DNA of 64,000 nucleotides. It comes from Planctomycetota bacterium (GTDB lineage Bacteria > Planctomycetota > Phycisphaerae > Phycisphaerales > UBA1924). The position numbers were made by a program, and so were the translations under genes. The stretch lies in the NCBI GenBank assembly GCA_003696675.1, contig RFGH01000117.1, positions 78,890 through 142,889 on the forward strand, written 5' to 3'. Of the stretch, positions 14,680 through 18,489 are shown piece by piece (the first letter of the stretch is position 1; each line of letters opens with the position of its first letter). Under the pieces are notes generated by a model. That model did not search any database, had not been told where the DNA came from, and worked only from the letters and a program-made list of their open reading frames with translations.

Positions 14680-16083
14680 TCAGGTATTGATGGGCGTAGC
14701 AACCATGATTTCCTCGCCGTCCACTTCTACCGAAGCCAATGCATACAGCCGGATGTCGGTGTCCAGCACCGCCCGATGACGAGCGGGCGAGCGGGCGAGT
14801 AGATGCAGCGTGACGCCACAGTCGGCCATCGGATCGGAAGCCGGCAGGCGGACCGATGTCTCTGCCCGGATCAGCAGAGGAAGATTATCCATGGCCCACG
14901 CGCCCGCCGCGAGCAACCTGGCGACGGCGTCCGGGCCATCATCGGTTGTAACCGCGTGCAGATCGCCTTCCGCATCGCAGGCTAATTCTACGCCGGGTGC
15001 GTACGGACACCGAGCCTGGATCGTGCTGAGCCCTTCGATCAGCTCCGGCAGCGGCTCGCGCAGACGACGGTTCGTCGGCTTCGGTTCGACCAGCGGCAGC
15101 GAATCTCCCCGCGTGACCGCGGGGGTCGGATCGGAGCGCGGCGCACCGATCGGACGCACGACGACCTCGGGCATCGCCGGGCGATCGGCCTCTTCGTCCG
15201 TGAGCCGCAGCGACACCGGAGCGAACGGGGCCTCACTCTGTGTGTCGAGCAATGCTTCGATCGCACGGTCCGCCGCGTGATCTTCATCGATACGACAGAT
15301 CGTCGTGGTCCCTGTTGCGTCGATGCGACCGGATGCGTCGAGCACCTCGACCGGTCGGTCGAGGAACGCCTTACACGCGCGCTCGATCTTCTTGCACGCC
15401 TGCGCGATGACCTCGCCCGATCCACCCATCACGGCGACCCGCAATCGCGGGGGCTCATCCGAGTCCAGCCGATCATCGAGCGACGCGGCGAGCGATTTGA
15501 TCAGACGGTAAGACGCAACAACCGCGGCCTCGTCCGCCCCGGTTAGGATTGTCACCTCGTCGATCCCGCCACGCTCAAGCAGTTCCGGCTCGGCCGTCTC
15601 ATCCACACGCAGAATGACCCGCGATGCGGCAGCCATAGCGACCGCGATGGCATCCTCGATCGACTCGACCGGCTCGACCTCCGCGCGCTGCACGCCTGTG
15701 ATCACATCAACCGCCACCGATCCGCCCGAGGTACGAACCAGAGAGACGGTCTCGCCACGCTTCCGGGCCGCTTGGCACGCATACTGCCTCACCCAGAGCG
15801 AGGCTCGCACAGGTAAGTGTCCGAGTACCACAAGTTCTATCTGAGGACGCTCAGCCCGATGGTCCGAGTCCGAATCGGCCCGCACCGATCGCACCGCTGA
15901 ACCCTCGTACCGCGAGGACGGTGGCGCACTCGTCGGCTTGGGCTGGGGCTCGTCGGCGGGAGACATCGGGCGGGGAGCGAACGCCGCATCGCCGAGGAAC
16001 AGCTCGGCCAGCGCGTCATGTTCTTCCTGCTCGGTGCCGGTCAGACGGATGCCCGGACGGGCAGGTGGGCGATTCTGATCCAT
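14680..16083 (-). CDS. Conserved protein with MinD/FlhG-like fold features but no Walker A motif
   Basis: SRVILRVDETAEPELLERGGIDEVTILTGADEAAVVASYRLIKSLAAS..LRVAVMGGSGEVIAQACKKIERACKAFLDRPVEVLDASGRID resembles the C-terminal half of MinD/FlhG ATPases; GGAGG SD before the 16083 ATG; follows parA-CBM48. Confidence 0.45.
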   Translation of the reverse strand: MDQNRPPARPGIRLTGTEQEEHDALAELFLGDAAFAPRPMSPADEPQPKPTSAPPSSRYEGSAVRSVRADSDSDHRAERPQIELVVLGHLPVRASLWVRQYACQAARKRGETVSLVRTSGGSVAVDVITGVQRAEVEPVESIEDAIAVAMAAASRVILRVDETAEPELLERGGIDEVTILTGADEAAVVASYRLIKSLAASLDDRLDSDEPPRLRVAVMGGSGEVIAQACKKIERACKAFLDRPVEVLDASGRIDATGTTTICRIDEDHAADRAIEALLDTQSEAPFAPVSLRLTDEEADRPAMPEVVVRPIGAPRSDPTPAVTRGDSLPLVEPKPTNRRLREPLPELIEGLSTIQARCPYAPGVELACDAEGDLHAVTTDDGPDAVARLLAAGAWAMDNLPLLIRAETSVRLPASDPMADCGVTLHLLARSPARHRAVLDTDIRLYALASVEVDGEEIMVATPINT

Positions 16084-16137
16084 CGGCGAGCCTCCGCTCC
16101 AGTTTGCCCGCCGATCCATCCGGCGGGGCGTGCGGCC

Positions 16138-17496
16138 TTAGGCCGACGCGACATTGTTCTCACCCCCCAGACCGTTGGGCGTCCGGGCGGGGTTGTACGG
16201 ATCGCAGCACCACTGCCCGTCCACCACCAGCCGGTATTCGTGCCGCCCGCTGGGGCATTCAACCCGGCACTCGAAGATACCCAGGTCGGTTCGTTTCGTC
16301 ATCTGTCCCCGTTCCGGGTTCCACCCATTGAACCCCCCCACCACCGATACAGACCCACCAGCCGTTATAGGCTGAACAAACAGCAGCCCTCCGGCGACCG
16401 CCCGGACCCCCCACAAATGGCGGAGAGCCTCGGGATCGGGGGGCGGTGGAGCCTCTGCGGGTGTGGGGTCCGGCACGATCTCGATCGCCACCGGCTTGTG
16501 GGGCATCAACGAACGGCGCAACGGGACGGATCTGGTCATGGAAGCCGCCTTGAGCGCCATTTCCTGGGCCCGGCTCAGCGTGGCCCCACTCCCGGGCGTG
16601 ACGAGCGTGGCCTCTAGGAGGCGAGGTTCGACGATGCGATCGGTATCTCCCCCCGGTTCAGGGCGGTCAAGGTCGGCGTGCTCGATCAGCCATTCGCATA
16701 GCGAGCCGTAGTCGTCCGCACCCATGGACCCCGGGGCATGCTCCTCGACGGGGCGTCCGAACGAAGCCGCCTCCTTCACCTCGGGGTCCAAACGAATGAT
16801 CGTGGGGATCACCGCCGATCCGAAGCGATCCCGGAGATCGTCCAACAGATCGCGAGCAAGGGGCAGTGTGGGGTCGTACATGGTCGCTAGGAGACGGACA
16901 CGCGGCTCGACCCCGATATGACGGGTGACGGAGCGTGCGGTCTGGATCTGCTTACCGGCGCCGCGGAGCGAGAAATAGCTGGTTTCGACCGGGATGATGA
17001 TCTCCGAAGCGGCAGCTAGGGCGTTGTAGCTGAGCAGCCCGATCGACGGTGGGCAGTCGATGACCACGACATCGTACTTTGTCCCCGAGGCGCCCTGCTG
17101 ACCGGCTGGGCTGTCGTCGACAGGCGGCGTGGCGACGAGGCGTTTGATGACGGAAGCAAGCCGGTTTTGGGGCTGATCCATGTCGGCCAGCCCCCCGCGG
17201 GCAGACTCGAGCCCCGCGAGTCTCATGCGGCTGGGCAGCAGGTCGAGACCGCGACCGACACGCCACAGGAACCGGTCGCGATCGAGCGGGGCCCCGGTCG
17301 GGAGGCGGAGCGCGTCGCCGACATCGAGATCGAGCCGATCCTCGGGAACGCCCAGCCCGGCGGCACAATGGGATTGGGGGTCCAGATCGATGAGCAAGGT
17401 GCGGAAACCGCGTCTGGCCAAACCGGCCGAGACATTGATGGCGGTGGTCGTCTTGCCGCACCCGCCTTTCTGATTGATGACCGCGATCGTGCGCAT
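16138..17496 (-). CDS. ParA/Soj-family ATPase with C-terminal CBM48/AMPK-beta-like glycogen-binding domain
   Basis: N-term MRTIAVINQKGGCGKTTTAINVSAGLARRGFRTLLIDLDPQSH; YDVVVIDCPPSIGLLSYNAL; C-term GSVSVVGGFNGWNPERGQMTKRTDLGIFECRVECPSGRHEYRLVVDGQWCCDPYNPARTPNGLGGENNV. Confidence 0.92.
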   Translation of the reverse strand: MRTIAVINQKGGCGKTTTAINVSAGLARRGFRTLLIDLDPQSHCAAGLGVPEDRLDLDVGDALRLPTGAPLDRDRFLWRVGRGLDLLPSRMRLAGLESARGGLADMDQPQNRLASVIKRLVATPPVDDSPAGQQGASGTKYDVVVIDCPPSIGLLSYNALAAASEIIIPVETSYFSLRGAGKQIQTARSVTRHIGVEPRVRLLATMYDPTLPLARDLLDDLRDRFGSAVIPTIIRLDPEVKEAASFGRPVEEHAPGSMGADDYGSLCEWLIEHADLDRPEPGGDTDRIVEPRLLEATLVTPGSGATLSRAQEMALKAASMTRSVPLRRSLMPHKPVAIEIVPDPTPAEAPPPPDPEALRHLWGVRAVAGGLLFVQPITAGGSVSVVGGFNGWNPERGQMTKRTDLGIFECRVECPSGRHEYRLVVDGQWCCDPYNPARTPNGLGGENNVASA

Positions 17497-17661: not shown

Positions 17662-18393
17662 TCAGAAACTGGCCGAGGCGATCTCTTCCCGGAGGGGGAT
17701 GAGCAGGGCCGGCACGGCGAGGGTGTCGACGAGCTCGCGACCGCGGGCCGCGAGCATGTCCATCCGGGCGGGGAGGTGCTTGAGATCGGTGACCGGCTCC
17801 GTCGATCGGACCGTTACATAGAGTGAGATCGGATCGGGGCGTTCCGCCCCCGCCTTGGCCGAACGGGTCTTGACCTCGACAGATGCATGCAAGCCATGAT
17901 CCAGCGTGAGCCCGACCAGCGGCTGGCACTCGCGGACGGTCGCGTTGGGCAGGTCAAACAGTGCGGCTAGAGGGGATCCATCGAGCAGCGCCGACGCGAC
18001 GATGGTGTCGTGGTTTGATCGTGCGGCGAGATCGAAACCGAACAGGATCTCGACCGACTCAACATCGAGAGGTGAGATGGAAAGGTAGTATGGGCAAACC
18101 TCGGCCGCGGAACGGTGGAGATCATGGATCTGATCTTCCGTCTCGGGGTTGACGATGCCGGTGCGGACCGAGTGGCTTCGGATGGCCATCCATCGGTGCG
18201 GGACATCGTCCTGGCCCGACTCGAGGGCGAGTTCGTCCTTGTAGCGACGGAAGGCGGCCATCTTGGGATATTCGCGCTTGATGCGCTCGAAGAGTTCGAG
18301 CACTGGTTCGCGTGACCGTGGCAGTTCCATCCGCGAGGTCAGCTTGGCGTTGACATAGAAGTCAGAACACAACGCCGCATAGCTCATCGTCAT
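17662..18393 (-). CDS. Conserved hypothetical protein
   Basis: Long ORF with SD GGAGG upstream of the 18393 ATG; no family recognised. Confidence 0.6.
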   Translation of the reverse strand: MTMSYAALCSDFYVNAKLTSRMELPRSREPVLELFERIKREYPKMAAFRRYKDELALESGQDDVPHRWMAIRSHSVRTGIVNPETEDQIHDLHRSAAEVCPYYLSISPLDVESVEILFGFDLAARSNHDTIVASALLDGSPLAALFDLPNATVRECQPLVGLTLDHGLHASVEVKTRSAKAGAERPDPISLYVTVRSTEPVTDLKHLPARMDMLAARGRELVDTLAVPALLIPLREEIASASF

Positions 18394-18489
18394 GTGTTGG
18401 GCCTCCGATGCCTCTGGGGAGCAGTGTACCGATGCGCATGGGTTGCGCGGGGTTGTTGACAGGTTGTGCACAGCATCTTGACCGAATTA

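Follow-up and report, generated by a model that had tools for sequence, protein, structure and literature searches.

The locus raises the question of what a ParA-type ATPase would do with a sugar-binding module of the kind found in AMPK. ATPases of the ParA/MinD family are responsible for organising chromosomes, carboxysomes, chemoreceptors and flagella, and to our knowledge none of them carries such a module. The original prediction, made on the 64-kb window (the whole stretch of DNA that was analysed), described a complete Soj/ParA ATPase followed by an AMPK-beta-type CBM, proposed glycogen granules or another glucan-associated cargo, and placed the cargo adaptor within the ATPase itself. 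The two domains do lie in one protein, encoded by a real single ORF, and belong to the families named. The adaptor and the cargo fare less well, mainly because of a second, previously unannotated gene directly downstream, absent from the original prediction, and of the distribution of glucan enzymes.

A ParA-type ATPase with an AMPK-beta-type CBM

The fusion gene and its main features are as follows (positions in the window).
16138-17496, minus strand: ParA-CBM48 fusion gene, 452 aa, a single ORF with start ATG and stop TAA
16672..17496, minus strand: Soj/ParA-type ATPase domain, residues 1-275 (Foldseek and PDB sequence matches)
17446..17472, minus strand: deviant Walker A, QKGGCGKTT, residues 9-17 (conserved across 65 orthologues)
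16537..16575, minus strand: conserved short linker helix, SRAQEMALKAASM, residues 308-320 (conservation; helix predicted at 309-320)
16144..16410, minus strand: AMPK-beta-type CBM (CBM48/PF16561), residues 363-451 (Pfam, PDB sequences, model and contact residues)

The fusion protein matches AAA_31 (Pfam; E 1.9e-35), and the best structural matches of its ATPase are the Soj/ParA structures 9a6n, 8ray and 2bek (Foldseek; E down to 4.5e-23), which superpose with prob 1.00 and TM by target of 0.89-0.90, identifying a Soj/ParA fold. With the full fusion model as query, the best 50 Foldseek matches are to the ATPase only. The signature Lys and the P-loop Lys are invariant in 65 orthologues, and KGGCGKTT, D37, D147 and neighbouring residues are conserved in the same set; the deviant Walker A and the catalytic Asp motifs are present and the nucleotide site is, as far as its motifs predict, intact. 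Several loci belonging to the same family retain a 269-aa gene upstream of the fusion (17662-18471, minus strand in the window), which has no convincing family match.

At the C-terminus, residues 380-449 match AMPK1_CBM (PF16561; E 3.3e-10; 40.5 bits, curated cut-off 26.8), while the match to CBM_48 is below threshold (Pfam). By sequence alone, the last 94 aa match CBM structures of AMPK beta-1 and beta-2 (E 2.9e-8 to 4e-7) and, less strongly, SEX4/DSP4, which are glucan phosphatases (E 1.4e-4); with a family profile, E ~1e-12 is reached. In the AlphaFold model, which had been named as a check on the predicted fold, this region forms a beta-rich domain (pLDDT 95-98), and the linker that joins it to the ATPase is modelled with low confidence. 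A plasmid search for the CBM gave no match. Separately, one genome (G003) carries a stand-alone CBM48-type ORF of ~107 aa (L052:7246-7569, minus strand) ~2 kb from the fusion gene, and similar small CBM48 ORFs occur in several genomes of the order (e.g. 125 aa in G033 and 209 aa in G025).

In AMPK, W100, K126, W133 and N150 are sugar-contact residues, and mutants at these positions are impaired in binding glycogen (PMC4032982, PMC2642990). The window protein keeps the equivalents of W100, W133, L146 and N150, with Arg for K126 and Gly for T148 (W392, R422, W429 and N447 in its own numbering for the four sugar-binding positions). The original residue-by-residue comparison (both Trp, the Leu and the Asn kept, Lys replaced by Arg) was correct; the change at T148 had not been listed. 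Among 65 orthologues, the W100 equivalent is Trp in all, that of K126 is Lys or Arg in all, that of W133 is Trp in 64 and that of N150 is Asn in 57, and the L146 and T148 equivalents are mostly Phe or Tyr and mostly Glu, respectively. The W100, K126, W133 and N150 columns are among the most conserved of the CBM (mean entropy 0.31 vs 1.75 bits), and entropy was equally low in 180 of 100000 random four-column sets. Because these contact residues are conserved and are needed for glycogen binding in AMPK, sugar binding by the fusion CBM is likely.

The linker between ATPase and CBM is long and mostly disordered in the AlphaFold model, and the short helix listed above is its sole strongly conserved stretch (family consensus SRAAELAxRARxL; R309 in 61/65 orthologues, R316 as Arg or Lys in 59/65). 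As the CBM-less proteins L201 and L203 end with a sequence that resembles this helix by eye, it may serve as a docking site.

DNA-contact residues and the ParABS possibility

The arginines implicated in the non-specific contact of ParA with DNA, whose equivalents in Bacillus Soj we take to be R189/R218, correspond to positions 210 and 239 of the window protein; in our own alignment these are Thr and Glu and vary within the family. Position 241 is Lys or Arg in 65/65 orthologues, and the region is basic in many members. In Caulobacter ParA the two DNA-binding arginines are R195/R224, and MipZ binds DNA through other residues (PMC7229837). Nucleoid binding by the fusion ATPase appears plausible.

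With Soj/ParA proteins as its closest structural relatives, the fusion could be the chromosomal ParA of a ParABS system; we consider this very improbable. Family scans and neighbourhoods contain no ParB-like gene beside the fusion, in agreement with what had been noted for the window, where no parS-like site was found with up to 3 mismatches allowed. The fusion gene lies close to aroB or to other unrelated genes. The window genome also encodes another Soj-like ParA (C213; 38% identical), and the majority of genomes in the order contain a further, weaker match whose size is that of an ordinary ParA.

Distribution and history of the fusion

A match to the fusion protein (E <= 1e-5) is present in 199/201 sampled genomes of Phycisphaerales; many matches are full-length, and these span dozens of genera. 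In a named-species scan of 84,980 genomes, most of the 80 best loci bear the label Phycisphaerales, Phycisphaeraceae, Phycisphaerae or Planctomycetota; a single Tepidisphaera and a single Sedimentisphaerales are also among them. The same fusion is found outside Phycisphaerales at three class-level loci (L202, L204 and L205); the matches listed for the rest of the phylum are less strong (E 1e-55 to 1e-79) and shorter, stopping ahead of the CBM. The dozens of genera and the 80 named loci rule out an artefact or a fusion specific to this assembly, a concern raised with the original prediction: ParA-CBM48 fusions run through Phycisphaerales and Sedimentisphaerales. Two complete genomes labelled as strains, ZRK32 and syqfu (L124 and L144), carry it. 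What looks like a separation of ATPase and CBM in another genome (G186) is a pair of contig ends.

In a tree of the ATPase domain (120 sequences) the fusion is basal and the CBM was lost at least three times within Phycisphaerales; the root is not firm, as the branch leading to the only outgroup is very long. Sequence comparison points to a real fusion, conserved across the class Phycisphaerae and, on this tree, ancient. Two records named 'Leptolyngbya sp. PLA1' and 'Cyanobacteria bacterium CYA' (L103 and L135) group with Phycisphaerales on the fusion gene and also carry the downstream gene described below; they look mislabelled.

A conserved gene for a putative partner downstream of the ATPase

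The downstream gene, here called c1, has the following features.
14680..16119, minus strand: partner gene c1, 479 aa, previously unannotated, starting 18 bp past the ATPase stop codon
15991..16020, minus strand: N-terminal peptide HDALAELFLG, residues 34-43 (conserved in 57 members)
15220..15846, minus strand: degenerate FlhG/FleN/MinD-like domain, residues 92-300 (Foldseek and profile matches)
15793..15828, minus strand: site of the lost P-loop, VLGHLPVRASLW, residues 98-109 (conservation compared with intact-P-loop homologues)
14683..15057, minus strand: C-terminal alpha/beta domain, residues 355-479 (pLDDT mostly above 90)

No family match to c1 was found in Pfam or NCBIfam, and a family search with its C-terminal domain was likewise without match, leaving that domain with no known relative. 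The best structural matches of the c1 model are FlhG (4rz2/4rz3; E 7e-6 to 2e-5), followed by FleN and MinD (Foldseek); superposition on 4rz2 is partial (prob 1.00; TM by target 0.46) and indicates a MinD-like fold. Where FlhG carries SGKGGVGKT, c1 has VLGHLPVxAxxW (57 members), and because this replacement removes the Walker A, c1 is classed, on its motifs, as a pseudo-ATPase, a P-loop-less relative of FlhG. In profile searches full-length c1 relatives are restricted to Phycisphaerales; outside the order the c1 profile matches 110 residues of FlhG/YlxH-type ATPases whose P-loops are intact.

In 75 of the 80 named loci c1 lies directly downstream of the ATPase on the same strand, with a median gap of 39 bp between ORF calls. 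The five loci lacking an adjacent c1 comprise three contig ends, one Sedimentisphaerales and one rearrangement (ZRK32, also sampled as G055), in which a profile search locates c1 ~10 kb from the ATPase; by the same search it is adjacent in G024. ATPase and c1 also remain together where the CBM has been lost (at least three times), and from this survival of the pair we infer that the CBM is accessory and c1 the core link. Class-level relatives of the fusion outside Phycisphaerales have no recognised c1, which is therefore not essential for every member. What weakens the proposal that the ATPase contains its own cargo adaptor is the separate, conserved partner encoded next to it, which persists through the CBM losses.

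The N-terminal peptide of c1 (family form (Y/F)DALADLFLG) is leucine-rich and acidic-hydrophobic, without positive charge, and lies in a disordered N-terminus between flanks of low pLDDT, with a helix predicted at residues 31-42. In ParA/MinD ATPases cargo specificity is set by a partner that contacts the ATPase via a disordered N-terminus, and the contact region of known partners is positively charged (PMC10241942); in ParB the contact is made by a short motif at the N-terminus through its conserved hydrophobic residues (PMC12462528). By analogy, the ATPase-c1 gene pair has the published partner layout, minus the positive charge of the peptide.

Alpha-glucan metabolism in host genomes

GlgA (GT5) is clear in 2/201 genomes of Phycisphaerales (nine pass the cut-off, seven of those weakly), and matches to a GT4-type glycogen synthase (TIGR02149) are all below cut-off and uninformative. 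GT35 and CBM48 enzymes are patchy across the order, some genomes of which encode both GlgB and alpha-glucan phosphorylase. In the window genome (92% complete) neither a phosphorylase (GT35) nor a CBM48-type branching enzyme was found, and its two GH13 proteins are better matched by amylase/trehalose-synthase or maltodextrin-type enzymes than by GlgB. A GH57 enzyme is present, as in 12 of the 15 genomes sampled, window genome included, leaving an alpha-glucan possible as ligand. One stretch of genome G012 (L239:5659-16366) holds GlgB, alpha-glucan phosphorylase (TIGR02094) and a GH57-DUF3536 protein within ~11 kb, a possible alpha-glucan cluster that is not linked to the fusion.

The notion that fusion-bearing genomes have no alpha-glucan metabolism at all was dropped, as GH57 is present in G000 and in G033, the latter with none of GT5, GT35 or GH13. 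GH57 occurs in 11/11 genomes with the CBM and 1/4 without it, in a hand-picked set of 15 in which two of those four represent one reduced genus, and the CBM-less genomes G040 and G044 retain matches to alpha-glucan phosphorylase; loss of the CBM in step with loss of glucan enzymes was for these reasons not used as an argument. No glucan pathway clearly tracks the CBM, and the enzyme distribution does not single out glycogen as cargo. The original choice of glycogen granules is not supported, given the rarity of GlgA and the enzymes undetected in the window genome, its GH57 notwithstanding.

Proposed mechanism and alternatives

The best reading, to which we give roughly an even chance, is a conserved module of two proteins that positions something or acts as a switch, and whose tail responds to alpha-glucan. 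The ATPase would cycle between ATP dimer and monomer, and c1 would engage it, probably via the N-terminal peptide, much as ParB and McdB, among other partners, engage theirs. It would be c1, not the CBM, that forms the core connection to the object being positioned or switched; the CBM would bind alpha-glucan or malto-oligosaccharide and thereby provide the ATPase with either a tether or a metabolic input of the AMPK kind. More tentatively, and with the balance against it, the module could be a new kind of positioning system, in which the ATPase would bring a polyglucan-binding module of its own and cooperate with a pseudo-ATPase descended from FlhG. Storage polyglucan, or some other cargo coated with glucan, would then be spaced and inherited, or the positioning cycle would be gated by how much of it there is.

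Several other readings draw on the same evidence. The CBM could be a metabolic sensor that reads intracellular malto-oligosaccharide or alpha-glucan and alters the ATPase cycle, the pair controlling a process that has nothing to do with glycogen, such as division, motility or appendage placement. In other bacteria FlhG controls how many flagella are made and where they are placed, and the apparent descent of c1 from FlhG fits such a role, as does a CBM that is dispensable while the pair is kept; in AMPK, glycogen acts as an allosteric inhibitor through its glycogen-binding domain, the same type of domain (PMC2642990). The length and disorder of the linker speak against a sensor, which we regard as possible and not probable. 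Segregation of glycogen granules, with the CBM as built-in adaptor tethering the ATPase to glycogen so that granules become distributed across the nucleoid and are passed to daughter cells, would agree with the retained contact residues, the frequent GH57 and the proximity of GlgB, phosphorylase and a GH57-family protein in some genomes (L239). It is unlikely in view of the scarcity of GlgA, the un-GlgB-like GH13s and undetected GT35 and CBM48 branching enzyme of the window genome, the phosphorylase matches in G040 and G044 where ParA has no CBM, the DNA-contact arginines that are not conserved, and the separate partner c1.

Alternatively, the CBM may have lost sugar binding and become a protein-binding module, as could be suggested by the variable L146 and T148 contacts (Phe/Tyr and Glu in most members) and by many genomes with no clear glucan-synthesis pathway. 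This we think quite unlikely, since the four sugar-binding residues of AMPK are strongly conserved over the whole class, and we know of no reason for such conservation without a sugar ligand. If the CBM of the preferred two-protein module binds glucan, bacterial cell organisation would be linked to carbon status by the module that ties glycogen to AMPK in animals. An ATPase paired with a P-loop-less FlhG relative would also be a new type of partnership. The fusion is directly testable, as its domains are small and two complete strain-labelled genomes carry it.

Comparison with known systems

Open-access literature on ParA together with CBM48, glycogen positioning or Phycisphaerae yielded no description of the fusion, in keeping with the earlier statement that no such system was known to have been described; fusion and two-gene module are apparently undescribed. 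The fusion shares with Soj/ParA, McdA and PpfA/ParC the fold, the deviant Walker A and the size of the ATPase core, as well as a dedicated gene adjoining that of a diverse, here putative, partner with a disordered N-terminus. It differs from them in its C-terminal AMPK-type CBM and conserved linker helix, and in having as partner a P-loop-less FlhG-like protein; unlike Soj/ParA, the window protein is also without the classical DNA-contact arginines. The CBM resembles that of the AMPK beta-subunit in sequence family, modelled beta-rich domain and retention of W100, W133 and N150, with K126 as Lys or Arg, whereas L146 is replaced by Phe or Tyr and T148 by Glu in most fusion members, and the domain sits on a ParA ATPase rather than on a kinase subunit.

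With FlhG/FleN/YlxH proteins, its best structural matches, c1 aligns in the second half of the domain, including a DAYxxIK-type segment. In contrast to them, it has no P-loop or Walker A, has gained an N-terminal peptide region and a relative-less C-terminal domain, and is encoded with a ParA. FlhF-FlhG, two related P-loop-type proteins that act as a pair, offers a possible model for ATPase and c1, although here the active member is ParA-like and it is the FlhG-like c1 that appears to have lost its nucleotide site. A ParA/MinD-family ATPase with a partner is of a known kind; the CBM tail and the pseudo-FlhG partner are apparently new.
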